IMG/VR virus record: IMGVR_UViG_3300033154_000149
Location: 1 to 22,994 of that record
Reading direction: 5' to 3' (one strand)
DNA from: a virus
Length of the DNA stretch: 22,994 nt
Each line of letters opens with the position of its first letter. Positions within the stretch are counted from its first letter, which is position 1. Below the pieces are notes generated by a model. The model ran no database searches. It saw only the letters and a list, made by a program, of their open reading frames with translations, and was not told the origin of the DNA. This document shows, piece after piece, positions 814-21,658 of this stretch. The position numbers and the translations under genes were made by a program.

Positions 814-1956
814 ATGTCTAAACAGTATGCTATAATGAAAGATGGAAAATGTGTTTTTGGACCCGTTCCAGAAGCAGATTATCAAAAGATAGTAACCCAC
901 CTCAACACATTCACCCCAGAAGAAAGAAAGACTTATAAAGTCGTATTCACGACTGCGAAGTCTGAGGCACCTGCAGTAACACCTCCTGTCACAACACCAC
1001 CAGCAGCAGTCACACCACCTGCACCAGTAACACCACCAGTACAAGAGAAAGTTGCACCACCAGTAACACCTCCTGCCGCACAAGCACCTGCAGTTGAAAC
1101 ACCCCCTGCAACAGAACAGCCTGCCGATGAATATACATTTGATAATAATGCCACTGCCGCATTTTCAAGTCATGTAGAGGGCGGTGGTTCATCTGAGTAT
1201 TGGAAACCCAAAGATGGTAAGAATCTTGTCAGATTATTGCCTCTTGGTGGTATTAATCCGAATGACTGGAAGACACCATATCCAATGTTATTATCAGGGT
1301 TGCATCCTAACGTTGGGTTATCAATGCAAGAAATGGTATATTGCCCACGTTTGACGCATAATCAGGCATGTCCAATTTGTGCGTTCGTTTGGAAGTTGTA
1401 TAATAACAACAATGAAGAAGACAAGGCACTTGCAAAGAAAATCAAGTCATACAAACGTATTTTGATGAACATTATTGATCTTAGTGATCTTGATGCTGGT
1501 GTTCAAAAGTATGCATTTGGTAAGAAACTTGCAGGAAAAATTGTTTCGTATTTGCAAGATCCTGATACACGATATGTATTGCATCCTGATAAGGGTAACA
1601 ATTTCATATTAATCAAGAAAACCATCGATGGATATCCCAATTACGATGAATCTCGTTTCGAAATGAAGTCTACTCCATTATCTGGTATTTTACCAGAGTG
1701 GCGTAAGGGCATTCATGATTTACGTAAGGACGTCGTTGAGAAATCGTATGATGAATTAGCAGTTGTTTTGCGTGAGACAAAGAAGGCATTATTGGAATCT
1801 TCAACAGATGATGTTGCTCCTGTTGAATCTCATGCAGTCGAAACTGTTGCTCAAGCACCAGCTGCCGCAGATAATCAGTTTGGTGGACCCGAAGGTACCG
1901 AAGTTCAAGAGGTTTCTCTTGAAGAGTTAGACACAAAATTGAATAACTTTAAATAA
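814..1956 (+). CDS. ssDNA-binding protein, T4 gp32-like, with Pro-rich insert
   Basis: The 380-residue product starts 8 bases after AGGAG (801-805). Residues 1-50 form a short N-terminal segment. About 50-105 is a proline/threonine-rich linker built from repeats such as VTPP and APVTPP. From about residue 115 the core resembles phage gp32-type SSBs: GKNLVRLLPLGG, then a zinc site CPRLTHNQACPIC (Cys, His, Cys, Cys), which gp32 proteins use structurally. The C-terminus is acidic (EVQEVSLEELD), typical of SSB tails that recruit replication and recombination partners. Its place at the head of the replication operon fits coating of ssDNA at the fork and during UvsX-type recombination. The N-terminal extension and long linker are unusual for gp32. 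Confidence 0.85.
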   Translation: MSKQYAIMKDGKCVFGPVPEADYQKIVTHLNTFTPEERKTYKVVFTTAKSEAPAVTPPVTTPPAAVTPPAPVTPPVQEKVAPPVTPPAAQAPAVETPPATEQPADEYTFDNNATAAFSSHVEGGGSSEYWKPKDGKNLVRLLPLGGINPNDWKTPYPMLLSGLHPNVGLSMQEMVYCPRLTHNQACPICAFVWKLYNNNNEEDKALAKKIKSYKRILMNIIDLSDLDAGVQKYAFGKKLAGKIVSYLQDPDTRYVLHPDKGNNFILIKKTIDGYPNYDESRFEMKSTPLSGILPEWRKGIHDLRKDVVEKSYDELAVVLRETKKALLESSTDDVAPVESHAVETVAQAPAAADNQFGGPEGTEVQEVSLEELDTKLNNFK

Positions 1957-5632: not shown

Positions 5633-8074
5633 ATGGAACCGTATTCTTTATTAAATAATCAGGGTCTTGCGACTTGTTCAGAATGCCCGTTAAACGGTGC
5701 AAAACCTGTTTTCTCTTATTTTACAGACGAGAGTATTGATGTATTGGTTATTGGTCAGTCTCCCGGATACCAAGAAGTGGAACAGAGCAGACCATTTATA
5801 GGTCGTTCTGGTGAGTTGATTAATAACGTCTTACATAAGTACACGAAGAAAATTGGCTACATAAACTCAATGAATTGCAGACCACTAGATGATGGTATTG
5901 GTAAAGATAGAGCACCAGCTGCCGTAGAATTGAAATGTTGCAGAGAAAGACTAGTAGAAGACATCAAATATGCACTCGAAGAGTTGAAACCAAAAGTTGT
6001 ATTAGTGCTTGGTGGTGTTGCTAAAAAAGAGTATAAGAAGTTGATAAAGAAATACCCAGAAGTTGAGGATACAGTAACGTACATGATGGAACACCCGTCA
6101 TATATATTGCGTAATGACTTCATGATGAAACCATACATTCAAAATTTGCATAATTCATTGAAGTCAGTATTTGTGGTTGAGAATACCAACGTTGTAGATA
6201 CCTTTCTCTTATATAACAACAATATGAAGTTTAATTTTCTTGCAGACTGCAAAAAGACGAATGGTGTTGGTCTCGATATTGAGACTAATGGACTTGACGT
6301 ATTTTCTGAGGAATTCTTCATTGGTACGTTTGGTTTTACGTGCGATGATAATTCGTATTTCTTTGATTTTCGTAAGCCTGAATTCTTTGGTAAGGATGGC
6401 AAATGGTATGGAACAAGTAAGAACGACGTTTATGATTTTAGAGAATGTGAACCTTTAATACAGGTGTTGAAAGACCCGTCAATTCAGAAGGTAATTGCAA
6501 ACGTCATGTACGACGCTGTTGCTATTCATTACGCTGGAGTAGAAATCAATAATATTACTGATTTATTTCCACTTGCGTCTATGTATGACAACATGCATTA
6601 TGAGTACAGTTTAGAGGCTATTTGCATGAGATACATGCCTGAATACGCTGCCTATAAAAATAAGTTTAAGTTGAGCATTACAGATCATAACTATATGGCA
6701 GTTGATGTAAAGAATTTGATGATATACAACTGTTTTGATTCGTGGTCGACCAAGAGTTTGTATGATCTTTTGTATGCGAAACTTCCTGCAAAGACACGAA
6801 CGTTGTTTAATAATGTTTATATTCCATTGATGGCTACACTGGTCGAAGTTAAGTGTACTGGTATTAGAATTGATCAAGAGTTATTTGAAAAGTACGTAAA
6901 GACTTTTGAGGACAGATATGCTGAAATAAGTAGATTTCTTGATAGTAAATATGGTGTTACTAACATTAATTCAACACCACAGATTAAAAAGTGGTTTTTT
7001 AAGACACTAAAGTTGAAGTCAATACGAAAAACGAAGACAGGTGGTCAATCAACTGATAAGAAGGTAATTGAGTTTTATTCAGATAGAGTACCAGACGTTA
7101 AATTGTTATACGAGGCACGTCGTTATACTAGTTTATTAACGTATTTCATGCCTGCAATAAAAGAGAATATTGACAGGTTGGGTTTGATTCATCCAAACTA
7201 CAAACAATATGGCATTCAGTCTGGTCGAATTTCATGCAGAGCACCAAACTTGCAGGGTATTCCACGTGATAAAACAGGCATTAAAGTATTAGATGAAAAC
7301 CCATTGAGGCGTATGTTTACGTCTAGAGGTAAAGATTCATTTATACTTGAATTTGATTATTCACAACAAGAGGTAAGAATTGTTGCGTTCTTATCACAAG
7401 ATCCATCAATGATTCAGGCATTTAACGATGGACTTGACATTCACAGATTTGTTGCTACATTTATATTTAATAAGAAGTATGATGATATTACTGAATTTCA
7501 ACGTCAGGTAGCAAAGGGTTGTGTATTTGGCTCTATTTTTGGTGTTTCTGCAAGAGAGTTGGCTGATACCTTAAAAGTAACAGTGAAGGCTGCAGAGGCA
7601 TACATTCAGAAATTCTTCACGAAATTTCCAAGAGTTAAGTTGTATATTGACACTCAGGGTGATATTGCAGTCAATAAGAAAGAAGTTGTATCAATACTTG
7701 GAATGCCAAGAAAGTTCATGGTCAACTCCAAAAATGAGAAAGACGTTAGACGTGAGGGAGCCAATCATCAAATTCAATCGGTTGGTGCTGTGTTCACGTT
7801 TCTTTCTCTGAATAAAATAAAAGACAGTCTGAAAGAGAGTGGACTGTTGAATAATGGTGTTAAGATGATTCATTCGGTTCATGACTCCATAATGTTTGAT
7901 GTTGAAAGAATGCACATACCATACACTATTGATGTTGTGCAGTCAATTATGACTGCTGTACCACCGTCAATTGGATTCAAAATTGCATACCCAGTTGATT
8001 ATAAGATCGGGAGTCGTTGGGGACAGGATTTAAAACTTGAAGATGTGTTAAATGAACAGGTTGTATCAACATGA
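5633..8074 (+). CDS. Uracil-DNA glycosylase / DNA polymerase I fusion
   Basis: The 813-residue product has three parts. Residues 1-180 resemble a family 4 uracil-DNA glycosylase: CSECPL (C15, C18), GQSPGYQE (41-48), RPFIGRSGE, NCRPL (C82), C102/C103 (together a plausible 4Fe-4S set) and EHPSY (H154). Residues 210-380 are a 3'-5' exonuclease with D215/E217 (LDIET), D294 and YNCFD (D369), so proofreading looks intact. Residues 390-813 are a family A polymerase: motif A FDYSQQE (D575), motif B RQVAKGCVFGSIFG (R624, K628, F632), motif C SVHDS (D751). There is no 5' nuclease domain. In motif B the usual Tyr is Phe636, and in motif C the usual Glu after HD is Ser752. Its neighbour purZ suggests it copies a Z-containing genome (a DpoZ-like role), which is inference. 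Confidence 0.9.
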   Translation: MEPYSLLNNQGLATCSECPLNGAKPVFSYFTDESIDVLVIGQSPGYQEVEQSRPFIGRSGELINNVLHKYTKKIGYINSMNCRPLDDGIGKDRAPAAVELKCCRERLVEDIKYALEELKPKVVLVLGGVAKKEYKKLIKKYPEVEDTVTYMMEHPSYILRNDFMMKPYIQNLHNSLKSVFVVENTNVVDTFLLYNNNMKFNFLADCKKTNGVGLDIETNGLDVFSEEFFIGTFGFTCDDNSYFFDFRKPEFFGKDGKWYGTSKNDVYDFRECEPLIQVLKDPSIQKVIANVMYDAVAIHYAGVEINNITDLFPLASMYDNMHYEYSLEAICMRYMPEYAAYKNKFKLSITDHNYMAVDVKNLMIYNCFDSWSTKSLYDLLYAKLPAKTRTLFNNVYIPLMATLVEVKCTGIRIDQELFEKYVKTFEDRYAEISRFLDSKYGVTNINSTPQIKKWFFKTLKLKSIRKTKTGGQSTDKKVIEFYSDRVPDVKLLYEARRYTSLLTYFMPAIKENIDRLGLIHPNYKQYGIQSGRISCRAPNLQGIPRDKTGIKVLDENPLRRMFTSRGKDSFILEFDYSQQEVRIVAFLSQDPSMIQAFNDGLDIHRFVATFIFNKKYDDITEFQRQVAKGCVFGSIFGVSARELADTLKVTVKAAEAYIQKFFTKFPRVKLYIDTQGDIAVNKKEVVSILGMPRKFMVNSKNEKDVRREGANHQIQSVGAVFTFLSLNKIKDSLKESGLLNNGVKMIHSVHDSIMFDVERMHIPYTIDVVQSIMTAVPPSIGFKIAYPVDYKIGSRWGQDLKLEDVLNEQVVST

Positions 8075-8088
8075 AAGGAAGGTGAGTA

Positions 8089-9117
8089 ATGTTACAAGAA
8101 GGTAAACTTAATTTGTTGTTGGGCATTTCATTTGGTTCGGAGGGAAAAGGTAACATTTGTGAGTATATTGCCAGAAATGCCAAAATTGATCTGGCTATTG
8201 CAAACAACACTCCAAATGCAGGTCATTTTTATCATACAGATGACGGAGAAGTTCGTTTGGCTAAGATGTTGCCAGTTTCGGGTATTACCAACAAAGAATC
8301 AAATATTCTTCTTGGTTCTGGGTCAGCTATCAATTTGGAGATTCTGGACAAAGAAATTACAGAATCAGACTGTGGTAATCGTACGTTGATCGCCACATCA
8401 GCACCTGTTGTAAATCAGAAATGTATCGATTACGAAGTTGAAAATCTGCAGTACATAGCATCAACCTTCCAAGGTAGTGGGGCTGCTATCGGTCTCAAGG
8501 CTATGAGGTCTAAAGACGTTACTATCGTGCGTGATGTACCAGAATTAGAGAAATACGCACATACTAACATCGCAGACATCATTATGAATCGAGTTGTCAA
8601 GCATGGCAAGACTGCATTCGCAGAAATTTGTCAAGGATATGGACTTTCAGTTGACTCTGAATTCTATCCTTTTTGCACGTCTCGACCAGTGAATGTTGGT
8701 CAGGCACTTGGCTATCTTGATGTGCCACATGACATTGTTGGTGATGTAATAGGAGTTGCACGAACCTATATTATTCGTGTTGGTAATGTACCTGGTGGTA
8801 GTTCTGGACCCGTGTATTACGATTCTAAAGAAATGACATGGGAAGAGGTATCACAACACATCGGACGTGATGTAACAGAGAAGACGTCCGTTACGAAAAG
8901 GGTGCGTCGGGTATTCACGTTTAGTAAGTTTCTATTTGAACAGGCAGTACGCAGAAATAGTGTCAATGTTTTATATCTCACCTTTGTTGATTATTTGGTG
9001 GGTAATGAAAAGCAGGAATTCATTGATTATCTAACGTCTGAGGAGTTCAATTTCAAAGAGATTTACTTTGTATCAGGTTTTGGTGAATTCGATAAACACG
9101 TTGAAAAGATAAAATGA
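8089..9117 (+). CDS. purZ: PurZ-like N6-succino-2-amino-dAMP synthase (PurA family)
   Basis: The 342-residue product is the length of archaeal-type PurA. The P-loop is GISFGSEGKG (12-21): PurA has WGDEGKGK with a catalytic Asp, and here that position is Ser17, the substitution reported for PurZ enzymes that use dGMP instead of IMP. The catalytic His is kept in NAGH (H46), and the aspartate-binding loop TKRVRR (269-274) matches PurA's RxRR. Expected reaction: dGMP plus aspartate gives N6-succino-2-amino-dAMP, which host PurB converts to 2-aminoadenine nucleotide. T298-x-x-D301 (LTFVD) resembles the PurA guanine-reading TKxD, so GTP may be the phosphate donor. A GGAAGGTGA ribosome site precedes the start, 14 bases after the polymerase. 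A host-like PurA role is the alternative, but Ser17 argues against it. Confidence 0.82.
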   Translation: MLQEGKLNLLLGISFGSEGKGNICEYIARNAKIDLAIANNTPNAGHFYHTDDGEVRLAKMLPVSGITNKESNILLGSGSAINLEILDKEITESDCGNRTLIATSAPVVNQKCIDYEVENLQYIASTFQGSGAAIGLKAMRSKDVTIVRDVPELEKYAHTNIADIIMNRVVKHGKTAFAEICQGYGLSVDSEFYPFCTSRPVNVGQALGYLDVPHDIVGDVIGVARTYIIRVGNVPGGSSGPVYYDSKEMTWEEVSQHIGRDVTEKTSVTKRVRRVFTFSKFLFEQAVRRNSVNVLYLTFVDYLVGNEKQEFIDYLTSEEFNFKEIYFVSGFGEFDKHVEKIK

Positions 9118-10391: not shown

Positions 10392-10863
10392 TGTTTTGGA
10401 TGATATATTGAACAAGATCAGTCTTTCATTTGGTAATGAATCGTTGGAGTTGATTATACCACATGAACAGATGATTGAAATGTCTATGTATCGTGTTGGT
10501 GCATTAGATATTGATGATTTGGATGGTGAGTTGGTGTTCCTGCCAAAGATGTACACGTTGTTTACTGCATTATTGTCGTTTGTTGTTGAGAAGTCAAATC
10601 ATGCACATACACACGTAAAGAGAATAGAGGCAACTCAATCTTTGCAGTATGAGAAACAACTTGTTGGTGCTGGTGAACGTGCAACAGATAAGAAAATAGA
10701 AAAACTTGTTATATCTGATGAAATGTATAAAGTTGCTGTTGACCAAGATTTAGATTTTAAGAATATGGTGATGTCCTTTCAGAACATACTTAAGGCACTT
10801 GAAGTGAAACGTGATTCTCTGTTGCAATTAGTTAAGAAGAGAAGACAAGAAATGGAGGCTTGA
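10381..10863 (+). CDS. Putative UvsY-like recombination mediator
   Basis: The 160-residue product starts after AAGGAAGGTGA. It is helical and charged, with VKRIEATQSLQYEKQL in the middle, a SDEMYKVAVDQDLD segment and a C-terminal KALEVKRDSLLQLVKKRRQE. T4 UvsY has the same order of elements (an RIEA-containing helix, a basic middle, a segment of acidic and helical residues, and a C-terminal helix with conserved Arg). It sits directly before the uvsX/recA gene, where a recombination mediator would be expected. The assignment rests on architecture and context rather than a diagnostic motif. It would load the recombinase onto SSB-coated ssDNA. Confidence 0.45.
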   Translation: MQSDVLDDILNKISLSFGNESLELIIPHEQMIEMSMYRVGALDIDDLDGELVFLPKMYTLFTALLSFVVEKSNHAHTHVKRIEATQSLQYEKQLVGAGERATDKKIEKLVISDEMYKVAVDQDLDFKNMVMSFQNILKALEVKRDSLLQLVKKRRQEMEA

Positions 10864-10865
10864 AA

Positions 10866-12014
10866 ATGAACAAGAAAAGTGAAAAATTGAAAACTGAGGC
10901 AGTACCTTTGGATGACTTAGGTTCTCTTGTCGGTAATCTTATTAAAGATTATCGTAAAGTTGGTCTACCTATGGAAAAAGGGAAAGTTGATTGTGAATTT
11001 ATTGATACTGGCAATCTTGCATTAAATTATATAATGTCAGGTTCGTTTGATGATGGACTACCATCTGGTCAATTAACTGAAATTCATGGCGACCCGTCAA
11101 CTGGTAAATCTCTTCTCTTGTATAACATCATCGCAAATTTCTTGATTAAGTACCCAAAAGGTGTTGTTATACTTGATGATGCTGAACAGGCTTATGTGCA
11201 ATATCTTGGGTCGAAGTTGCAAATTGATGAATCTCGTTTGATTAAGATTTCATCTGCAACCATTGAAGATCATATGAATATGGTATTTCGTGGTGGTCAA
11301 ATCATCAATCAAGTAAATGATGAATCAGATGAAATTGAAGTTGCAGATCCAATTATTCGAAAGTTGTTGAGTGCTGGTGTTACTCAAATATTGATTGCTA
11401 TTGACAGTATTGCAGTTTTGTCAACCAAACATGAACAGGCGGTTGGTCTCGATAAGCCTGACTTGTCAAAGGCAAAGGTATTAAAGGCACTCTTACGTGT
11501 TGCAGTTCCTTACATCAAGAAGTACAAACTCACCTATATTATAACCAATCACTTGATATACAAAATTGGGTCTCAAATACCTAATCAGAAAGTTACTCCC
11601 GGTGGCGGTGGTATCGTGTATCAGTCGTCTATTCGATTGGGAATGACATACACAGGTAAACTCAAAGTGAAAGACACGAATTTGATTGCAGGTGTCAAGT
11701 CAAGAGTAACGACTGTGAAGAATCGATTTGCACCTCCATTTAGACAGGCTGATATGGAGATTTTATTCAATGCAGGCATATCAAAGTATTCAGGTTTAGT
11801 TTCTCTTTTAACTAATATGGGTGTGTTGAAAATGACAAGTGGTGGTTGGTATACTATAATTGATACTGACATGAAGTTTCAACAAAAACATTTGTCTGAA
11901 AAGTGGGAAGAAATTCGAAAGTTGATAGAGGCAAAAGGTATTTTACAACGCAAACAAGAGGTTGTTGATTATGTAGATCCAAATGTAATAACACAAGACC
12001 AACTTGATGGATAA
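10866..12014 (+). CDS. RecA/UvsX-like recombinase
   Basis: The frame is open from TTG 10860, but ATG 10866 lies 7 bases after GGAGG (10854-10858) and is preferred (382 residues). Walker A is GDPSTGKS (75-82). The RecA catalytic-Glu segment is VILDDAEQA (E107), Walker B is ILIAID (175-180). YIITNHLIYKIG has Asn-His where RecA has Asn-Gln, as I recall for UvsX. The ssDNA-binding loop 2 region is KVTPGGGGIVYQSSIRL. It forms presynaptic filaments for strand invasion and recombination-dependent replication, probably with the SSB, the upstream UvsY-like protein and the SbcD-SbcC fusion that resects ends. Confidence 0.9.
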   Translation: MNKKSEKLKTEAVPLDDLGSLVGNLIKDYRKVGLPMEKGKVDCEFIDTGNLALNYIMSGSFDDGLPSGQLTEIHGDPSTGKSLLLYNIIANFLIKYPKGVVILDDAEQAYVQYLGSKLQIDESRLIKISSATIEDHMNMVFRGGQIINQVNDESDEIEVADPIIRKLLSAGVTQILIAIDSIAVLSTKHEQAVGLDKPDLSKAKVLKALLRVAVPYIKKYKLTYIITNHLIYKIGSQIPNQKVTPGGGGIVYQSSIRLGMTYTGKLKVKDTNLIAGVKSRVTTVKNRFAPPFRQADMEILFNAGISKYSGLVSLLTNMGVLKMTSGGWYTIIDTDMKFQQKHLSEKWEEIRKLIEAKGILQRKQEVVDYVDPNVITQDQLDG

Positions 12015-12029: not shown

Positions 12030-13160
12030 TTGTTTAAACCTGATAAAGTATCAATTGGTCTTGACGATATAGCCGTCATACCAGAATCACCTGTTGTATT
12101 TTCTGATTCAGAAGTCGATCTGTCTATTGATATAGGTAAATTGAAGTTGGGATTGCCTATCATATCGGCTGCTATGGACAGTGTATTTTCACCTGCAATC
12201 GTATCGAGATTGAGTGAAGAAGGTGGCTATTCATTACTCAATTTGTGTGGATTGATGTCGAGATACAAGTTTGAAATGTGGGAAAAAATATTCAATAAAA
12301 TAAGCAATCTGCCTGTTATACTCATTCTACAACATTTGTACAATGACAAGCCGATGGATCATGCAATTCTCAGACACAATTTGAAAGAGTTGAAAGGTCA
12401 TACTAGTGCTAAGTTTGGTGTGTCTGCAACACCTCAAACAGCAGAAAGTCTGTTTGAAACAGCACTTGAAGTTGGTGGTTATGATACGTTTGCAATTCAG
12501 TCTTCTTTTGTATCACCATTTTGGAAGTCGAAGACAATAGAAGGTTTGGACATTATTAAGTATTTAAAGAAGTTGAAGGATCAAGGATGCACGACGATGG
12601 TTGGTAATGTAGCGTCACTTAACGTTGCACGTGTATTTATTGATGGTGGTGTTGATGCGTTATTCTTGGGTATCGGACCCGGAGTAATATGCACGACACG
12701 TAAAGTGTTGGGTATTGGTGCAGGTCACATCACGTCTATTCATAACATAAGAGAGTATATTGAAACATCATCGTCTGATACACGAATTATAGCAGATGGT
12801 GGTATTCAGTGTAGTGGTGATATTATTAAGTTAATATGCACAGGTGCTCATGCAGTAGTAATTGGTGGTATGTTTGCACGTACGGCTCAGGCTCCTTTTA
12901 TTGGGTATCACTGGGGACAATCAGCCTGTCATAGGACACTTCCTAGAGGCAATTTACAAAAGTTTGAGACCAACGAATTTGACACTATTCAAAAGGTGTT
13001 GGTGGGTCCATCTGATGTTGATGATGGAAGATTCAATTTGGTTCATGCAATTAAAAATGCCTTTAGTAACATTGGTGTCTTGAACGTTTCAGACGCTTAT
13101 CACAAGACATCAGTTGTGCAGTTTGGAGGCATGGCAACTGAGGGGAAATTGAAAAAATGA
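12030..13160 (+). CDS. IMP dehydrogenase / GMP reductase family enzyme (GuaB-like)
   Basis: Start is TTG 12030, fixed by GAGAGGAG at 12016-12023. The 376-residue (beta/alpha)8 enzyme has LPIISAAMDSV (42-52), GNVASLNVARVFIDGGVDAL, the catalytic loop GIGPGVICTTR (Cys221), ADGGIQCSGD phosphate-binding (255-264) and VIGGMFA. The CICTTR-type loop is closest to IMPDH. It lacks the CBS pair that makes typical IMPDH about 490 residues. The region after residue 290 does not show the usual RGM or Arg-Tyr flap, and the NAD-contact Asp segment is replaced by FAIQSSFVSP. It may therefore raise GMP/dGMP supply for PurZ, or catalyse a related reaction on another purine. Its place next to the DUF5664 gene supports a nucleotide-pool role. 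Confidence 0.75.
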   Translation: MFKPDKVSIGLDDIAVIPESPVVFSDSEVDLSIDIGKLKLGLPIISAAMDSVFSPAIVSRLSEEGGYSLLNLCGLMSRYKFEMWEKIFNKISNLPVILILQHLYNDKPMDHAILRHNLKELKGHTSAKFGVSATPQTAESLFETALEVGGYDTFAIQSSFVSPFWKSKTIEGLDIIKYLKKLKDQGCTTMVGNVASLNVARVFIDGGVDALFLGIGPGVICTTRKVLGIGAGHITSIHNIREYIETSSSDTRIIADGGIQCSGDIIKLICTGAHAVVIGGMFARTAQAPFIGYHWGQSACHRTLPRGNLQKFETNEFDTIQKVLVGPSDVDDGRFNLVHAIKNAFSNIGVLNVSDAYHKTSVVQFGGMATEGKLKK

Positions 13161-13576
13161 GTGAATTGAGAAAGAAACATAAAGAAAGAGCATCATCTGA
13201 CCCTGCAGTAAAAGGCGATGGTGACAAGTTGCGATTCGACCTTGTACCAATTGAGGCTATGGAAGAAGTTGCCAAAGTATACACAGTTGGTGCAGTTAAG
13301 TATGAAGATAGAAATTGGGAAAAAGGTATGAAGTGGTCACGAATGTATGCGGCCATGGAACGTCATGCGAAGGCATTTTGGAGAGGTGAGACGTATGACC
13401 CAGAAACTGGAATTCATCATATGGCTCATGCTGCTTGGAATTGTCTTGCATTGATTCATTATACAATGTTTAAACCTGAGTTTGATGATAGACCAGTTCA
13501 TGCAATACCTGTAATAAAATTGAAATTGAATAAGAAGGACTCCAAAACATTCAAGAAGTTGAATGGATTAAAATAA
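13157..13576 (+). CDS. DUF5664 family, putative dATP/dGTP diphosphohydrolase (MazZ-like role)
   Basis: The 139-residue protein starts in an ATGA overlap with the GuaB-like gene. Residues 19-103 match the DUF5664 signature: KGDGDKLRFDLVPIEAMEEV, then YTVGAVKYEDRNWEKGMKWS, then ERHAKAFWRGE.YDPETG and HHMAHAAWNCLALIHY. The family is named for dATP/dGTP diphosphohydrolase activity, and all-helical Glu/His/Asp residues of this kind bind Mg-nucleotide. In a Z-genome phage such an enzyme would make dGMP (the PurZ substrate) and lower dATP. The tight overlap with the GuaB-like gene supports a joint role in purine pools. Activity here is inferred from family and context. The C-terminal 30 residues are basic and not part of the signature. 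Confidence 0.75.
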   Translation: MSELRKKHKERASSDPAVKGDGDKLRFDLVPIEAMEEVAKVYTVGAVKYEDRNWEKGMKWSRMYAAMERHAKAFWRGETYDPETGIHHMAHAAWNCLALIHYTMFKPEFDDRPVHAIPVIKLKLNKKDSKTFKKLNGLK

Positions 13577-13582
13577 GTTGTT

Positions 13583-13655
13583 GGGGCTATAGTGTAATCG
13601 GTTAACACAGCAGGTTTTCAATCTGCTATTTCGAGTTCGAGTCTCGGTAGCCCTA
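13583..13655 (+). tRNA. tRNA-Glu (anticodon UUC)
   Basis: A full cloverleaf folds. The acceptor GGGGCTA pairs TAGCCCT with a G-U at the end. The D-stem is GTGT/ACAC, with loop AATCGGTTA. The anticodon stem GCAGG/TCTGC (last pair G-U) closes loop TTTTCAA with anticodon TTC at 13617-13619. The T-stem is TCGAG/CTCGG with loop TTCGAGT, and the discriminator is A. CCA is not encoded. It sits in the same direction as the genes, between the DUF5664 gene and a small ORF, and would read the abundant GAA codons of this AT-rich genome. Confidence 0.93.
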
Positions 13656-13676
13656 TAATGAAAAGGAGAGTGAAAC

Positions 13677-14104: not shown

Positions 14105-14262
14105 AAATAGACGAATTAAAAGACAAGTTTAACAGATGGTGGATGTGTGATTTCTGTGGTGGTATGGCAGACCCAATCAATGAGAGTATGTTTGTTTCTT
14201 GTATCATTGGTTCTGCTTTGGGCATTATTATTGCACTAATATTTTGGAGACTGGTATTATGA
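14098..14262 (+). CDS. Small membrane protein with CxxC (54 aa)
   Basis: The ATG at 14098 overlaps the end of the previous ORF, and the frame runs to TGA 14260-14262, which itself overlaps the next gene's ATG. The product starts MVKIDELKDKFNRWWMCDFC, carrying a CxxC, then has a single hydrophobic helix (about 31-52) at the C-terminus, so it is probably anchored with its N-terminus in the cytoplasm. No ribosome site is obvious, so translational coupling is assumed. Function unknown. Confidence 0.5.
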   Translation: MVKIDELKDKFNRWWMCDFCGGMADPINESMFVSCIIGSALGIIIALIFWRLVL

Positions 14263-14942
14263 AAATAAAGAAAGACATAACTTACAGCATTAAAGAGTTT
14301 GCAGATGAAGAATTGGCATTGTCTCAGTCGGTATTTGGGTTGGTACCACAGTCTGTGTATTTCAATTTTACGATAGACGTTGATATTGACGTTGTGAATA
14401 ATAAGTTGATTTACATTTATGGTTTGTCAGGTGAGGGAAAGTCTATACTAAAAGACGTGTTATTTGAACAACTTGATAGCACAATGCATGTTATTGATTA
14501 TGATGCCTTTGGTGATGGTCATTTCTTTGGTAGAAAGATTTCAGAGATTTTTGATTTACGAACGGACAAGGAATTTCTAGTTTCTCTTTTTTCTGCGTTT
14601 GGTCTGTTTGAAATGCGTAATTTGTTTTCTAGGTATGAAGAATTATCGATGGGACAACAAAAGAGAATTCGTTATATGTACTTGATTTATGACGCTTACA
14701 TTAAACGAGACATTGAATCAGTAATTTTGATTGATGAATTCTTGACCTTTGTTGATACTCTATCAGCCAAGGTATTTGCACAGGGTATCAGAAAGTTTAT
14801 GAAGAAGTACATGCCAGACACCTTGATATTTGCGTTTGGTTGTAATGATAACATAATAGGTTATTGGGAGGACTTGGTTATTAGTCTTCAAAACGGAAAA
14901 GTAATCGACATTGACGAGGTTAGAGATCATGAACAAGTATAA
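14259..14942 (+). CDS. Stand-alone ABC-type ATPase
   Basis: The frame is open from 14199, but ATG 14259 overlaps the previous stop and has GGAG 9 bases upstream, so a 227-residue protein is preferred. It has Walker A GLSGEGKS, the ABC signature LSMGQQKRIRY (usual LSGGQ with Met for the second Gly) and Walker B VILIDEFLTFVD. There is no membrane domain, so it is not a transporter subunit. A GNAT-like protein four genes downstream resembles the acetyltransferase half of COG2401 (ABC ATPase fused to an acetyltransferase), so the two may be a split version of that system. That partnership is inference. Confidence 0.75.
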   Translation: MKIKKDITYSIKEFADEELALSQSVFGLVPQSVYFNFTIDVDIDVVNNKLIYIYGLSGEGKSILKDVLFEQLDSTMHVIDYDAFGDGHFFGRKISEIFDLRTDKEFLVSLFSAFGLFEMRNLFSRYEELSMGQQKRIRYMYLIYDAYIKRDIESVILIDEFLTFVDTLSAKVFAQGIRKFMKKYMPDTLIFAFGCNDNIIGYWEDLVISLQNGKVIDIDEVRDHEQV

Positions 14943-15383: not shown

Positions 15384-15646
15384 ACAGAAACCCAGTTAAT
15401 TCAAGTAATCTCAAGTCGGTTGGTTATGATCCAGAAACAATGATACTAGAAGTTGAATTCAAAGGTGGTGGGGTGTATCAGTACAAGGGTGTTGAAGTAG
15501 AAACTCATAGTTTAATGACAACATCAGAATCAATTGGAAGATTTTTTAATCAGAACATAAAAAATAAATTTGAAACAATCAAACAAAATGCTGTTGAAGC
15601 AGATAAGACACAGGAAATAAATGAACAGGAAGAACGTAAAGAGTGA
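15380..15646 (+). CDS. KTSC-domain protein
   Basis: In the 88-residue product, residues 4-60 fit the KTSC family pattern: VNSSNLKSVGYDPETMILEV, then EFKGGGVYQYKGVEVE, then a Ser-containing helix and GRFFNQNIKNKF (usual A/T-S-x-G-x-[FY]-[FL]-N). KTSC domains are small and common in phages, sometimes beside nucleases or lysyl-tRNA synthetases; their activity is not established. The tail is acidic (KTQEINEQEERKE). A GGTGA ribosome site precedes the ATG, which overlaps the prior stop. Confidence 0.8.
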   Translation: MNRNPVNSSNLKSVGYDPETMILEVEFKGGGVYQYKGVEVETHSLMTTSESIGRFFNQNIKNKFETIKQNAVEADKTQEINEQEERKE

Positions 15647-16751
15647 GATTACATTTGATGTAGAAATGTATCGAACAGGTGATAAAGAATTAAAGAAAAT
15701 CAAACGCAAGGCATTTCAGAAGATCGAGACGCTTGACTTGTTGAGTTATCACTACTTTTCACAAGAGTACGATGCTGTTAGGTCTGCATTCATTCTGTTT
15801 CATCTGTATATCAAGTATGGCAAACGACGTTATTTCTGTGGTGCTGTTAGTGTTCATGTCTCAGGTATGAACAAGATTTTGAGAAATGTCTTTTTTGGTA
15901 CTGAATTCTTTGGTAAGTACCGTAAGCACATGATAGAGAAATACAACGTCAAAGCCAAGTTTGCAACTATAACAAGGTGCGTGTTGTTTCCTCAATTTCG
16001 TGGTATTGGTCTAGCCAAGGTGTTCATTGATATAGTTACTGCAAAATTAGAAGAAATTGACGATATTCACATGGTCGAAATCTTCTCTTCCATGTTGTAC
16101 AACTTTGATTTCATGCCTAAAAACTGGATTAAGTATTCAAATGTGATCAGTAATTCATTCCCATCGTTTGAGGCGTACTCTAATTTCTGCAAAAGTACCA
16201 AATTGGTAAAGAGTGTGGCGGATGCTAGAAAGATGATAAATCGTACTACTATAAAGACAGATGATGTTATTGAAGCAGGTGATGATGTAAACGAAAAGAT
16301 AACTAAGAAAAAGAGAAATCAGGTGTTTAGAACAGCCAAACAGACGCATAGACGGGTTGGTCGTGCAGGTGCCTATATACAACGAAAGTCTGGATCAATG
16401 TTTAATCGCATGGACGACGCAGATTCATTTGTCAATATAGCATCCTACATGTTCTACATACCACCAGCAAAGTTCGAGTATTTCTGCGAATTCTTTCATC
16501 TGAATACTGACGTTGTGTCTTACGATAGTCTCCTTTACTCTTACGGTGATTGTGTTGACTTGTACAAGTCAAAGATGGTGTCGTACAAGAAAAATAGAAG
16601 GCAGATGCCTATATTTCTTGAAATGTTTAAAGATTTCTGTGATCTGAGTAAGTTCAATGAGTTTGAGAAGAAGATATATAGTGAACAGAAACAGAAGAAT
16701 TATATGGCATTTAAGGAGGTTGAAGTTGGCGAGGATGGGCAAATCAAATAA
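15621..16751 (+). CDS. GNAT-like acyltransferase-domain protein
   Basis: The 376-residue product starts at ATG 15621 after AGGAAA, overlapping the KTSC gene. Residues 71-172 resemble the acetyltransferase domain of COG2401 proteins: YFCGAVSVHVSG, then ITRCVLFPQFRGIGLAKVFI (117-136, the GNAT acyl-CoA-binding V..P..RG.GL motif), then MVEIFSSMLYNFDFMPKNW. Residues 205-275 are Lys/Arg-rich (EKITKKKRNQVFRTAKQTHR) and could bind nucleic acid. The remainder is a charged helical C-terminal region. The phage Mu Mom protein shows that GNAT-fold enzymes can modify adenine in DNA, so a DNA- or nucleotide-modifying role is conceivable, but the substrate is unknown. It is the last gene before promoter P3. 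Confidence 0.6.
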   Translation: MNRKNVKSEITFDVEMYRTGDKELKKIKRKAFQKIETLDLLSYHYFSQEYDAVRSAFILFHLYIKYGKRRYFCGAVSVHVSGMNKILRNVFFGTEFFGKYRKHMIEKYNVKAKFATITRCVLFPQFRGIGLAKVFIDIVTAKLEEIDDIHMVEIFSSMLYNFDFMPKNWIKYSNVISNSFPSFEAYSNFCKSTKLVKSVADARKMINRTTIKTDDVIEAGDDVNEKITKKKRNQVFRTAKQTHRRVGRAGAYIQRKSGSMFNRMDDADSFVNIASYMFYIPPAKFEYFCEFFHLNTDVVSYDSLLYSYGDCVDLYKSKMVSYKKNRRQMPIFLEMFKDFCDLSKFNEFEKKIYSEQKQKNYMAFKEVEVGEDGQIK

Positions 16752-16796: not shown

Positions 16797-16835
16797 ATTT
16801 GTATTAAATTTTAACAAACAAAACAGGAGGTAGTG

Positions 16836-17795
16836 ATGAGCAATGTAAAATGGTTGGGGATTGAAAATCGTATTGAATCAATTGATGATGTTGTAGTTCC
16901 AGCAAAGAACATTATTGAGGCTGACTGGAATAAGGAGTCTCATATCGTGTGTGCAGAGGCTGAAAATAAAGAAATTATTGACTTTGATTTATCTGGCATG
17001 TTTTCTCCAATTTTGGGTAACTACTGGAGAGTGTTGTACAAAGAGGGCGATTTTGATGGTATTCGTGATGCTATCTTGCGTTATTGGAAGTACAAAGATG
17101 CACCAACTGTCAAAGCCAAGATTATCAAGTTTGCTGGTGAGACACCATCTGCTGTGTTGGGTACCAAAGTCACTGCTGAAAAAGACAGAGACAAAAAGAA
17201 GTATGATGCAAATGAAATTTTAAAAGGTATTAACGATTCATTTGATTATGACCGTGTAGTAGTTGGGTCTAACAGTGAAAATGTTGAATTGCAGTTTCTC
17301 AATTCAAAGAATAGAATTGATGCCTCAAGAGACCCACAAGTTAATGATTATTTGGATCCGGGACTGTTTGTGTTCTTAAATGGTAATGTTCAAGTTTCTG
17401 CAGGTTGTAATCGTTTGATATGTACAAATGGTTTAACAGAACATTTGAACGTGTTCGAATCACGTGATTACAAGTTTGATAAAGAAATCATGGATCGTGC
17501 AATAACTTTAGCCAACTGGCTAGTAACTAAACAGGATGCAAAAGTTTGTTCTGTTCGTGAATTGTCTGTTATTCTCAATGGTTATCCGAAACCAATGGCT
17601 ACTAAGTTTTGGAAAGAGTGGTCACAAAAAATTGAGACTAAAGAATTAACGTGGTTTGAGGTTATCAACGATATCACTAATTATGCGAATAAGTACATGG
17701 ACAAAACACGACAACATCTTATTCAATTTCCTGAGACATTACGTCAATATGAAAGGGATGCTACTTGTCCTGTTTGCAGTACACATATTGAGTAA
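16836..17795 (+). CDS. DUF932-like phage protein
   Basis: The frame starts with GTG 16833, but ATG 16836 is 5 bases after AGGAGG and is preferred (319 residues). The central region contains LDPGLFVFLNGNVQVSAGCN and RLICTNGLTEH, resembling the DUF932 (YfjQ/TIGR03299-type) core where a Cys-x-Asn-x-Leu segment follows a beta-rich part. The N-terminal third has a FSPILGNYWRVLYKEGDFDG segment. The C-terminus ends CPVCSTHIE, a CxxC not typical of the family. DUF932 proteins are common on phages and plasmids with no settled function. As the first gene of unit 3 with a strong promoter and ribosome site it is probably abundant early. The family call is moderate. Confidence 0.55.
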   Translation: MSNVKWLGIENRIESIDDVVVPAKNIIEADWNKESHIVCAEAENKEIIDFDLSGMFSPILGNYWRVLYKEGDFDGIRDAILRYWKYKDAPTVKAKIIKFAGETPSAVLGTKVTAEKDRDKKKYDANEILKGINDSFDYDRVVVGSNSENVELQFLNSKNRIDASRDPQVNDYLDPGLFVFLNGNVQVSAGCNRLICTNGLTEHLNVFESRDYKFDKEIMDRAITLANWLVTKQDAKVCSVRELSVILNGYPKPMATKFWKEWSQKIETKELTWFEVINDITNYANKYMDKTRQHLIQFPETLRQYERDATCPVCSTHIE

Positions 17796-17807
17796 GAAAG
17801 GTATATC

Positions 17808-18302
17808 ATGAAGGGCGATTTAAGAGTAGAGATTGTGGTTAGAAATAAATCTGGAAACCCAATCGATTGGTCAGAGTATGGCATCAAGGACTTACCTGCA
17901 AATTGGGTATTACTTGAAACGGTACACAAGTTGTCTATCAATGTTCCACTCGATTGGGTTGGTTTTAGAGACGGTACACTTCACAGAATGTTTGCAGAAT
18001 TCAACGATTTAATCTATGTGGCTCTTGCATATTACACTGACAACACAGAAATTGTACTCGATGGAAATGGTCATGAGTTTTCGTCATACGATGCTGTTGT
18101 AGATGGTAAGTGTATGCGTAAGTACGTGAAAAAGAGACTTCGTATCATCAATGTAATAGATGAAGAACGTGGTGCTTTTGAGGTACAAGAGTACATAACT
18201 GATATTAATTCATCTACACCTGCATTCAAGGTTCTTGACGTGTATTCAGTTGGGTCAGAGAGCATTCTTAAACAAGATTATTTCATAAATGATGGGAAAT
18301 AA
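17808..18302 (+). CDS. Hypothetical protein (164 aa)
   Basis: It starts 13 bases after the previous stop with AAAGG upstream. The product looks beta-strand rich, with alternating hydrophobics (GDLRVEIVVRNKSGNPIDW, then EIVLDGNGHEF) and a KRLRIINVIDEERGAFEVQE segment. No signal peptide, membrane helix or catalytic motif is apparent. It sits between a DUF932-like gene and the SbcD-SbcC fusion with two-base spacing to the latter, so it may be co-translated with it. Function unknown. Confidence 0.65.
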   Translation: MKGDLRVEIVVRNKSGNPIDWSEYGIKDLPANWVLLETVHKLSINVPLDWVGFRDGTLHRMFAEFNDLIYVALAYYTDNTEIVLDGNGHEFSSYDAVVDGKCMRKYVKKRLRIINVIDEERGAFEVQEYITDINSSTPAFKVLDVYSVGSESILKQDYFINDGK

Positions 18303-18304
18303 AA

Positions 18305-21268
18305 ATGAAAATTGGATTATTCAGTGACCTCCATTTGCATAAGTGGATGTCGTTTGGTGTTGACGAATATGGTTTGTCTGTAAGATTGGGCGACCAGATG
18401 AAGGTTCTTGAACAAATCAAGAAAAACATAATAGAGTACAAGATCGACAAATTAGCATTTGGTGGTGATCTGTATCACAAGGTGGGCGAGATCCCAGTTG
18501 AATGCATAAACGTTGCACACGAATTCTTTGCATACCTTGAAAGAGAAGACATACCGTGTTTGATGGTCGATGGAAACCACGATTTAATAAACAGAAAATC
18601 ACCGCATTGGTATCATTCTGCAGTAAGACCGTTTGACAATACAAAAGAGTACGAAGGTGTCAAAATCAAGATAGTAAATTATATGGATGTAATTGATTAT
18701 ACTGAAATCAGAGATTATGATATTGTCATACTGCATAAACAACCAACCTTAGTGAATGATTACGGTATAAAATTTGATGGTGCAGACTGGGAAACTCTTG
18801 CTGCTAATAACAAGTTGGTTTTCTTTGGTCATTATCATGAACGTATGTTTTTATCTGGTAATTGTTTTATTATGGGTTCAGTCATGCCATTGACGTTTGC
18901 AGACACTAATGATCGTGGTATGTGGATTGTAGATACAGACAACTGGACAGTAGAATTTATTCCTATTCAATCACCAAAGTTTATCACTGTTGACACTCCA
19001 GATCAAGTGGTTAAAGATGATGGCAATTACTATCGTGTCTTACATGCAGACAAGAGAGTTGATGATCCGAACGTTGTAACTGTTGTGGAACCACAGTATT
19101 TTGAAGAAAGACTTAAATCGTGTGATTTCATGGACATACTCAATGAGTGGGTACAAATCTGTGGAAAGAATAAATCGTATATTGATGCTATTGCAGATAG
19201 AGTTACATCAAAAATGCATGTAGTCAATGACGTATTTGATGGTCGTTTGATGGGAATATCGATAATTGACTTTCTGTCTATTGGTGAGATTGAATATAAC
19301 GTTGTTAATGGATTCACGTTGGTCTCCGGACGCAACGACATATTTGATTCAAATGGTTCTGGTAAGACATCAATGTTTGAGGCAGTTTATTGGTGTTTAT
19401 TTGGAGAAACGACAAAGGGTCTTACTGGTAATGATGTAGTGCGACGTGGACTTAAAGACTGTAACGTTTCATTAAAACTGATTAGTGAAAATAAAAGATT
19501 TTCTGTAACAAGAAGTAGAAAGAATGGACTCAGTATTTTATTAGATGGAGGTAATGGTGAATTTAAAGACGTGGCTGATGGGTACAAATTGATTGACGCT
19601 CAAAAGATACTTGAAAGTTTATTGGGTTTTGATAAAACCATCTTTCTTTCATCTTGTTACTTTAGTCAAGAGTCGTTGTCCATGTTCACTATGCTTGGAG
19701 ATGCTGACCGTACGAACATGATAACAAAGTTGTTGGGATTCGAGAAATACGACGATTTGTATGTTATGTTTAAAGATTCGATTTCTGAGGCACGTAATCA
19801 AATTGAAGATTCTACTAAGACAATAAATCTTGCTGATACTAATATGGCGATTGCACAAGGTAAGTTAGATACACTTGAAGGTCAGATGGCTGATATAAAT
19901 GACGACAATGACACCACCAAGAAAAGAATTGATTTATTGAAAAAAGAGTTGACAGAATTGAACAATGCGATGTTTAAAATAAATGAAAAGAAAGACGCTG
20001 AGGCTGATGTAGTAGATTTTGATAAAGAATTGGAAAGTTTGAATGGTATGGAAGACGATGCCAACATTGCTATTAATGAATGGAGAAAGAAATCAAACAA
20101 GTTTAGTGAAGACATAGCACACAATCAAACGCAAAGAATGATAAAAGTAACAGAATCTAATGGTTTTACTGCAAGTATAAAACAACTTAAGTCTGAAATT
20201 AACCATTTTGAAAATTTGCAGTTTGGTGAACGTTGCGACAAGTGTGCCTCTATAATTAATGAAAGTAACACTCTGGTATTTATAGAAAGTAAAAATAAAG
20301 ACATTTCATTACAGGAAGAGACAGTTGCTTTGTTTAATGAGGCTATTAAAACGTATGACAAAGAATCTAGTGAATTAGCAAGTGCCAAGGCTGATGCAGA
20401 TAAGCACATAGAAAGTCTTGATACGACTGTAATCAAAAAAGAAATTAGAGAAGTGAATGAACGTAAAGACAATGCTATTTTGTTGTCACGTGCAGTTGAA
20501 GTTGAAAGGACTAGAATTCAGACTTCCATGACTGATAAGGAAGGTTCTGTGTATAACTATGAAACTGACTATAAAAACAATGAAGACAAGTTTACTAGAT
20601 TGAATCATCAAACTATGGAATTGGACAAGTCAATTCATGCGTACAAAGAAGAGATTAAACTAGTAAAAGAAGGTATTGCAAAGGTTGAGACCTTAATTGA
20701 CATTGAAGAGTTTTGGAAGATCGCATTTTCATCAACTGGAATTCGTTCTCTACTTATTGATAGGTTCTGCAACGAGTTTAATCGTATAGCCAACGAGTAT
20801 TTATCAACTGCAAGTAATGGTGTAATGAGTGTGACAATGACACCCACAAAAGTATTGAAGTCTGGTGAATCTAGAAACAAACTTGGATTTGACATAATGA
20901 TGGGCGACGTTTCAGTTAAGTATGAAAGTCTGTCTGGTGGTGAGAAGAAAAGAGTTGATGTTAGTTTGTGTCTCTCTATCAATAAGTGGATAAGCATGAA
21001 AATGGGAGTTAAACATGGTCTACTTGGAATGATGGTGTTAGACGAGTTATTTTCAGGTATTGATTCACTTGGAGAGGAGTCAATTGCAACTCTATTAAAT
21101 GAAGAAGGTAAATGTAAGGCAGTATTTGTTATTGACCATGCTTTGAGTTTATCATCTTATGCAGATAGAATCATAACTATCGTAAAGGAATTAGATGTCA
21201 GTCGTCTCGAACATACATTTGAATATGAAAACACGCAAGTTGAAAAGAGCCTTGCAAGTGTTGGTTGA
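18305..21268 (+). CDS. SbcD-SbcC (Mre11-Rad50) single-chain fusion
   Basis: One 987-residue chain joins two proteins that are normally separate (T4 gp47/gp46, SbcD/SbcC). Residues 1-230 are the metallophosphoesterase nuclease: DLHLH (D8, H10), GGD (D55), GNHD (90-93), H144 in ILHKQP and GHYH (175-178). The Rad50-type ATPase starts at about 325, with Walker A SNGSGKTS (349-356) and a QES Q-loop. Coiled coil spans about 490-800, with a zinc-hook CDKC (C644, C647). The C-terminal half has the signature LSGGEKKR (876-883), Walker B MMVLDE (909-914), D-loop SGID and H-loop IDH (H945). All catalytic residues look intact. It processes DNA ends to ssDNA for UvsX-driven repair and recombination-dependent replication. 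Confidence 0.92.
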   Translation: MKIGLFSDLHLHKWMSFGVDEYGLSVRLGDQMKVLEQIKKNIIEYKIDKLAFGGDLYHKVGEIPVECINVAHEFFAYLEREDIPCLMVDGNHDLINRKSPHWYHSAVRPFDNTKEYEGVKIKIVNYMDVIDYTEIRDYDIVILHKQPTLVNDYGIKFDGADWETLAANNKLVFFGHYHERMFLSGNCFIMGSVMPLTFADTNDRGMWIVDTDNWTVEFIPIQSPKFITVDTPDQVVKDDGNYYRVLHADKRVDDPNVVTVVEPQYFEERLKSCDFMDILNEWVQICGKNKSYIDAIADRVTSKMHVVNDVFDGRLMGISIIDFLSIGEIEYNVVNGFTLVSGRNDIFDSNGSGKTSMFEAVYWCLFGETTKGLTGNDVVRRGLKDCNVSLKLISENKRFSVTRSRKNGLSILLDGGNGEFKDVADGYKLIDAQKILESLLGFDKTIFLSSCYFSQESLSMFTMLGDADRTNMITKLLGFEKYDDLYVMFKDSISEARNQIEDSTKTINLADTNMAIAQGKLDTLEGQMADINDDNDTTKKRIDLLKKELTELNNAMFKINEKKDAEADVVDFDKELESLNGMEDDANIAINEWRKKSNKFSEDIAHNQTQRMIKVTESNGFTASIKQLKSEINHFENLQFGERCDKCASIINESNTLVFIESKNKDISLQEETVALFNEAIKTYDKESSELASAKADADKHIESLDTTVIKKEIREVNERKDNAILLSRAVEVERTRIQTSMTDKEGSVYNYETDYKNNEDKFTRLNHQTMELDKSIHAYKEEIKLVKEGIAKVETLIDIEEFWKIAFSSTGIRSLLIDRFCNEFNRIANEYLSTASNGVMSVTMTPTKVLKSGESRNKLGFDIMMGDVSVKYESLSGGEKKRVDVSLCLSINKWISMKMGVKHGLLGMMVLDELFSGIDSLGEESIATLLNEEGKCKAVFVIDHALSLSSYADRIITIVKELDVSRLEHTFEYENTQVEKSLASVG

Positions 21269-21392
21269 TTATGGTGTTGAATTTGATTATTTAAAGAAGG
21301 CACCAGTTTATCATCATGTTAATTGTTTATTGTTTGATGGTGAAGTTGAAAAATTAGCCAAAGCTATAATTAGAGTTAAAGAAAAGAGTTAG
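21225..21392 (+). CDS. Small basic hypothetical protein (55 aa)
   Basis: It overlaps the 3' end of the SbcD-SbcC fusion by 44 bases. An in-frame start at 21195 is possible but overlaps even more; ATG 21225 gives MKTRKLKRALQVLVDYGVEF. The rest contains YHHVNCLLFDGE and a helix EKLAKAIIRVKEKS. Neither start has a good ribosome site, so expression probably relies on coupling to the upstream gene. Its stop codon lies at the 5' edge of the structured RNA candidate. Function unknown. Confidence 0.5.
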   Translation: MKTRKLKRALQVLVDYGVEFDYLKKAPVYHHVNCLLFDGEVEKLAKAIIRVKEKS

Positions 21393-21492
21393 CCTGTAAA
21401 CGTCCATTAGGCTCTGGGATAGCAGCCTCCTAGGTAAACGGCTGTGAAATGACGACAGAAATATCGGGGCGTGACGGCTCGGAGAGACGAGC
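21391..21492 (+). ncRNA. Candidate structured RNA element with H-type pseudoknot
   Basis: This stretch is about 55% G+C by count in an otherwise AT-rich window. An outer helix pairs CTGT and CGTC (21394-21397, 21401-21404, with an AAA bulge between) with GACGACAG (21451-21458), 8 perfect pairs. Inside it, CAGCC (21423-21427) pairs GGCTG (21440-21444), and CTGGGA (21414-21419) pairs TCCTAG (21428-21433) in the loop of that hairpin, forming an H-type pseudoknot with no gap between its stems. A third hairpin GCTCG/CGAGC (21477-21492) has loop GAGAGA. Alternative hairpins (AGCCT 21391-21395 with AGGCT 21409-21413) compete with the outer helix, as in a switch. No known class was recognised; it could be a riboswitch, ribozyme or regulatory leader. 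Confidence 0.5.
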
Positions 21493-21502
21493 ACTTAATG
21501 TG

Positions 21503-21658
21503 ATGAAACTTAGTGATGAAAAGAGAAAAGTAATGGAAGATGAAATGCGTACGTTTCTGTCCTGCATGGAATCTTTTGACATTGAAAAGAAGGCAGAGGA
21601 ACTTGTTAAATATATGTTAAATAACAGGCACTTTGTTGCACACAAAAGGAGAAAGTGA
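21503..21658 (+). CDS. Small helical hypothetical protein (51 aa)
   Basis: The frame is open from ATG 21449, but that start lies inside the structured RNA element and has no ribosome site. ATG 21503 gives a natural-looking protein starting MKLSDEKRKVMEDEMRTFLS. It is strongly helical and charged, ending HKRRK. No good ribosome site precedes 21503 either; the nearest purine run (GGAGAGA) is in the loop of the last hairpin, about 15-20 bases upstream, so translation could be controlled by the RNA. Function unknown. Confidence 0.5.
   Translation: MKLSDEKRKVMEDEMRTFLSCMESFDIEKKAEELVKYMLNNRHFVAHKRRK

Follow-up and report, generated by a model that had tools for sequence, protein, structure and literature searches.

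Is the gene at positions 18305-21268 of this viral sequence really a fusion of Mre11 and Rad50, and if so, what might the virus use it for? The window (the whole stretch of DNA that we analysed, at its full length) is a virus record of 22,994 bases and is probably a fragment. According to the original prediction, homologues of the Mre11 nuclease (SbcD) and of the Rad50 ATPase (SbcC) are joined here in one chain, with complete motifs for both in one uninterrupted frame. Our sequence comparisons support a true in-frame fusion that is conserved across a clade of phages.

A single open frame encodes both proteins

18305..21268, + strand: sbcDC fusion gene, 987 amino acids, a single open frame (open reading frame, Pfam, PHROGs, conserved junction)

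The frame runs from ATG to TGA for 987 codons and contains no internal stops. At the window's base composition, a stop-free run of this length has a chance probability of about 9e-36, and each of the other five frames contains 27 to 144 stops. Pfam finds Metallophos at residues 1-178, AAA_23 at 318-554, and SbcC_Walker_B at 870-931 (slightly below the curated cut-off). In PHROGs, residues 1-298 match an SbcD-like family (E 1e-36) and residues 318-976 an SbcC-like family (E 3e-74), which places significant matches to both proteins in one reading frame, SbcD first. When we aligned ten fused proteins, including a distant pair that is described below, the catalytic residues were all invariant: D8, H10, D55, N91, H92, H144, H176, and H178 in the Mre11 half and G351/K354, C644/C647, S877/G879/E880, D913/E914, and H945 in the Rad50 half. 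Frame, domains, and invariant residues all agree with the predicted completeness of both motif sets.

Could the fusion be an artefact of assembly or sequencing, with two separate genes in the actual genome? Most split pairs whose genes are near each other are in different frames (56 of the 60 distinct close split junctions, most often with an ATGA or TAATG overlap; the other 4 are in the same frame), and a one-base indel in such an arrangement could mimic a fusion. But seven other viral contigs, whose proteins are 37-43% identical to the window's, show the same uninterrupted frame, with conserved residues at the junction. Also, the fused clade is monophyletic (support 100/100), and the base composition by codon position runs on across the junction. 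Because seven independent and diverged contigs have the same open junction, an error is very unlikely, to the point that we consider the chance negligible. That the same fusion is kept in these contigs also bears out the claim that the two homologues form one chain.

The Mre11 half

18305..18838, + strand: Mre11/SbcD phosphoesterase (nuclease) domain, residues 1-178 (Pfam Metallophos, invariant residues, structure match)
18839..19099, + strand: last part of the phosphoesterase fold, with the capping region, roughly residues 179-265 (structure and profile matches)
19127..19216, + strand: helix-loop-helix where the Rad50-binding domain would sit, residues 275-304 (model, alignments to full-length Mre11 chains)

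The full set of nuclease motifs is present, with metal ligands D8, H10, D55, N91, H144, H176, and H178 and the catalytic H92. A model of the SbcD half alone (residues 1-318) has a pLDDT of 88.8. Residues 1-266 match the core of Mre11 crystal structures with Z about 22 over 237-252 residues at an rmsd of about 3 A (for 4tug_D, Z 22.3, rmsd 3.2, and 252 aligned residues), and the matches to core chains extend to residue 261-266. Beyond the core, the full-chain model has helices at residues 275-285 and 291-304, which are also present in the SbcD-only model and are aligned by profile. Full-length Mre11 chains (3tho_B, 6s6v_A, and 3qg5_C) align up to residues 306-309. If these C-terminal helices are included, the superposition is poor (rmsd 10-19 A), so in the models they are a putative Rad50-binding helix-loop-helix, which would dock on the root of the coiled coil but whose placing is loose. 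An SbcD profile aligns residues 1-343 of the query to residues 1-370 of Mre11 from T. maritima (3qg5_C), which is nearly its full length (E 3e-26). Given this near end-to-end match, the core at Z about 22, and the two C-terminal helices, the SbcD half does not appear to be truncated. We predict that it is a nuclease of the Mre11 type, with motifs and fold intact.

The Rad50 half and its zinc hook

19241..19738, + strand: SbcC/Rad50 N-lobe, residues 313-478 (Pfam, PHROGs, model, fold match)
19349..19372, + strand: Walker A, SNGSGKTS, residues 349-356 (sequence, alignment)
19739..20212, + strand: ascending coiled coil, residues 479-636 (model helices 479-559 and 573-636)
20234..20245, + strand: zinc hook, CDKC, residues 644-647 (sequence; CxxC invariant)
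20261..20725, + strand: descending coiled coil, residues 653-807 (model)
20726..21217, + strand: SbcC/Rad50 C-lobe, residues 808-971 (sequence, Pfam, invariant residues)

The C-lobe carries the signature LSGGE (876-880), Walker B with D913/E914, a D-loop around D920, and the H-loop H945; together with Walker A and the Q-loop these complete the bipartite ABC head. Residues 313-972 match the Rad50 fold with Z about 31 (for 3tho_A, Z 31.3, rmsd 4.2, and 347 aligned residues). In the model, the hook cysteines C644 and C647 are flanked by helices 479-636 and 653-807, which form an antiparallel coiled coil with CxxC at its tip.

The original prediction drew attention to a CDKC hook in place of the common CPxC. 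CDKC is indeed present, but it is not unusual: it is the commonest form in the clade of eight close fusions to which the window's protein belongs (5 of 8, with CEIC, CTKC, and CDYC in the remaining three). The distant fused pair has CPTC, and hooks in split phage proteins include CDMC (SPO1), CPVC, CKSC, CYVC, and others. Across the phages that we compared, only the two hook cysteines are constant. The glycine that usually follows the hook is alanine in the window.

The junction

19217..19240, + strand: junction or linker, residues 305-312 (Rad50 alignment, model loop, conserved junction)

How closely are the two halves joined? When the model is compared with many PDB entries, the first residue of Rad50 aligns with residue 313. 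In the full-chain model, a loop of about 9 residues (305-313) separates the last Mre11 helix from the first Rad50 strand; if the SbcD half is folded alone, the last helix extends to residue 311, and there is almost no linker. A survey of such fusions from 2011 (PMC3175470) put the length needed to span the gap of 28 A in the complex of T. maritima at 9-12 residues. The modelled link of the full chain is close to this prediction for a link made in place, while that of the SbcD-only model is shorter. For the whole chain, the AlphaFold model is of moderate confidence (mean pLDDT 77.5, pTM 0.56), which makes the position that it gives to the Mre11 half relative to the Rad50 half unreliable. The proposal that fusion would fix the stoichiometry and constrain the geometry is reasonable, and the short predicted linker agrees with it.

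Two other arrangements would make the gene's products less simple than one fused chain. First, the gene might yield both the full chain and an SbcC-only protein that starts within it, at M316. The window does have TTG and ATG codons at residues 315-316, right where SbcC would begin, but there is no Shine-Dalgarno-like sequence upstream of them. Furthermore, four of the fused relatives (L010, L091, L092, and L164) have no equivalent ATG near the junction, and in three others (L011, L090, and L176) the ATG lies within the first strand of Rad50. Judging from these sequences, a second product is unlikely. Second, the chain might be made in one piece, from which a protease then releases SbcD and SbcC as separate proteins. 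We found nothing positive in favour of this, beyond the fact that a protease could in principle cleave a junction that is short and exposed. The junction residues (G313 and the hydrophobic first strand of Rad50) are conserved as elements of the fold, and when we looked at the junction alignment by eye, we did not find a shared cleavage motif, so we think that proteolytic maturation is slightly less likely still.

Phages have probably fused the pair at least twice

How widespread is the fusion? A scan for close relatives with the single fusion protein as the query gave no match, and alignments were needed. We collected relatives from IMG/VR with alignments of SbcD, of SbcC, and of the fused clade, and classified their frames mechanically. 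A search for other fused SbcDC proteins had been proposed along with the original prediction, and it was productive. The window and seven other contigs (L010, L011, L090, L091, L092, L094, and L176) are mutually close and encode fusions of 941-1031 amino acids. Two more contigs, L164 and L190, also encode fusions, which are distant from the window's (about 22% identity). These two proteins (L164 4912-7851, 980 amino acids; L190 1814-4738, 975 amino acids) share 28-29% identity with split proteins from phages of Bacillus and Enterococcus. In all of the other loci that contain both genes, 189 when any repeated contigs are counted, the two are split. We set aside a 46-row alignment that mixed fused and single-domain rows, as the single-domain rows were apparently misaligned.

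In trees of SbcC with 113 and 51 rows, the eight fused proteins form one clade (support 100 and 100/100), and one old fusion event is well supported for them. L164 and L190 form a separate clade, and the fused or split label changes twice on these trees. Because this pair lies elsewhere in the tree, phage fusions probably arose independently at least twice. The trees speak against a single origin of the ten fusions: the ten are not united in any of 200 bootstrap trees, and the AU test goes against one origin just barely (p 0.046, which is borderline). As nearly all of the other loci are split, a change from a split pair to a fusion is the simpler history. The step need not have been a large one. 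Because split pairs overlap or share a frame, a small indel or the loss of a stop would suffice. For example, the Acinetobacter plasmid p5768 (L229 2499-2505) gave a one-piece match over both domains, and we rejected it as a fusion: SbcD and SbcC are two genes in the same frame, with a stop codon and one further codon between them. This arrangement is one step from a fusion.

The cultured-phage relatives that we inspected, a selection from more than a thousand records that matched, are split, and in a search of cultured phages for matches that span the junction, the best 30 of 696 are all annotated as two or more genes. When we used the clade alignment to scan genomes of bacteria and archaea, no relative turned up, though the scan was pattern-based and does not prove absence. 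PHROG profiles detect no separate SbcC or SbcD on any of the fused contigs, which are fragments or of uncertain completeness and reach up to 107 kb.

Is the intact fusion a stable form that has evolved repeatedly in tailed phages? This broader account would take in two unrelated groups, one an old clade that comprises at least eight lineages and the other a pair, with the fusion apparently the sole copy in each, and it would have selection for a fixed 1:1 complex formed in place as the cause. We find the case for the account as a whole to be evenly balanced.

A proposed role in recombination

17808..18302, + strand: gene upstream of the fusion, with no match in Pfam, PHROG, or PADLOC (kept beside the fusion in L010, L011, and L176)
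10860..12014, + strand: RecA/UvsX-like recombinase (homologues near the fusion in L011, L090, L091, L092, L094, and L176)
814..1956, + strand: single-strand DNA-binding protein, or SSB (homologues near the fusion in L011, L090, L091, L094, and L176)

In most contigs of the clade, the neighbours of the fusion include an SSB and a RecA/UvsX-like recombinase. By analogy to gp46/47 of phage T4, whose role in recombination-dependent replication and repair is established (summarised in PMC3175470), the fusion product is probably the phage's nuclease for recombination and end resection. Taking everything together, we think it very likely that a tailed phage encodes here a complete Mre11-Rad50 (SbcDC) nuclease in a single chain, with such a role.

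The complex might work as follows. An adjacent or overlapping sbcD-sbcC pair would have become fused, which would hold the two halves at 1:1. Two chains would then dimerise, most likely through two Mre11 and two Rad50 heads, to give the usual 2:2 head complex. On binding ATP, the Rad50 heads would close over a DNA end, and the CxxC hooks at the tips of the coiled coils would join two complexes or arms. Mre11 would cut or resect the end to leave 3' single strands on which the SSB and the RecA/UvsX-like recombinase of the phage could act, and the outcome would be recombination-dependent replication and the repair of breaks, as for gp46/gp47 of T4.

Alternatively, the protein might not be a recombination nuclease but an SMC-like protein that acts in defence or superinfection exclusion, along the lines of JetC or of LmuB from Lamassu. 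The LmuB profile of PADLOC matches the ATPase part (E 3e-20), and chains of JetABC and Lamassu systems are among the fold-search matches. But the match to the phage SbcC family is far stronger (E 3e-74), neither LmuB nor JetC explains the Mre11 half, and the gene lies among SSB and RecA-like genes with no recognisable Lmu or Jet partners. A role in defence therefore seems most improbable, and we prefer the recombination nuclease.

Other features of the window

The window shows signs of a Z-genome (2-aminoadenine) phage, at 8089-9117, 13157-13576, 5633-8074, and 12030-13160. A PurZ-like enzyme matches the NCBIfam PurZ model with E 3e-59, which is below the cut-off, and has the motif FGSEGKGN, with Ser in place of the Asp of PurA. 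There is also a dATP/dGTP diphosphohydrolase of the DUF5664 type (PF18909), and the window's family A polymerase matches DpoZ weakly. This DNA polymerase I (5633-8074) has an N-terminal domain of the uracil-DNA-glycosylase superfamily fused to the exonuclease and polymerase domains. Directly before the DUF5664 gene, a GuaB3/IMP-dehydrogenase-like enzyme (12030-13160) retains the active-site Cys (GIGPGVICTT). It could be a new part of the Z-type pathway, because neither IMP dehydrogenase nor GuaB appears in the text of a 2026 survey of the nucleotide enzymes of Z phages (PMC12884076). We considered PurZ as a correlate of the fusion and rejected it: among the fused contigs, PurZ is present only in the window and in the contig of its closest relative, L010.

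Three genes without Pfam or PHROG matches (15621-16751, 16833-17795, and 17808-18302) are kept near the fusion in some relatives; the first and third are 54% and 35% identical in L010, and the second is 36% identical in L090. A small ABC-type ATPase (14199-14942) has weak family matches and is 59% identical in L010. A tRNA-Glu (anticodon TTC; 13582-13656) lies within the replication gene cluster. The region 21385-21520 was rejected as a structured RNA, as it folds no better than shuffled sequences (z 0.28) and matches no Rfam family.

Comparison with known systems

Fusions of Mre11 and Rad50 are not new. They were first described in 2011 by Yoshida, Claverie and Ogata, who listed R555 of Mimivirus, proteins from five bacteria (some on plasmids) and six eukaryotes, and one from Bacillus phage 0305phi8-36; the hosts named include Deferribacter, a plasmid of Clostridium kluyveri, and Dictyostelium (PMC3175470). 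The same authors reported that the fusions were not one clade and noted signs in viral metagenomes that there are many others (PMC3175470). In the later literature that was accessible to us, we found no survey of phage Mre11/Rad50 fusions. So our find is genuine but will not surprise specialists who are aware of the 2011 work. What is new is that complete and compact fusions are kept throughout a clade of phages. Our results suggest that phages fused the pair more than once and that a fusion can endure over a long evolutionary distance, as the 2011 survey suspected but was unable to trace in tailed phages. They do not change the accepted mechanism of the Mre11-Rad50 complex. A compact and natural single-chain Mre11-Rad50 would be useful for biochemistry, cryo-EM, and other structural work, since every chain has a single nuclease and a single ATPase and the gene itself determines how the partners pair.

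The window's protein resembles the 2011 fusions in that Mre11 precedes Rad50 in one chain, the predicted link is short, and there are probably multiple origins; it also resembles the viral ones in that the fusion is apparently the sole copy. It differs from R555 of Mimivirus, which has 1351 amino acids and, by its description, a long, cell-like coiled coil, whereas the window's clade is compact. Bacillus phage 0305phi8-36 was the only tailed-phage case at that time, and its protein is missing a P-loop segment as well as the capping/HLH part, while the window's fusion is complete.

Among split systems, SbcD and SbcC of the Herelleviridae (gp21.3/gp21.9 of SPO1, Lysinibacillus phage LysYB2, and Kayvirus) have the same domain content, order, and sizes as the window's fusion (for LysYB2, 356 + 633 amino acids) and the same setting of replication and recombination genes, at an identity of about 25-27%. 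They are encoded by two genes that overlap, are adjacent, or lie up to several genes apart, instead of by one. T4 gp47/gp46 are also two proteins, and a role like theirs in recombination-dependent replication and end resection would be expected for the window's protein too. Finally, E. coli SbcCD and the Mre11-Rad50 complexes of T. maritima and M. jannaschii share both folds and all of the catalytic motifs with the window's protein, but they are built from two chains rather than one, and E. coli SbcC, at 1048 amino acids, has a longer coiled coil.
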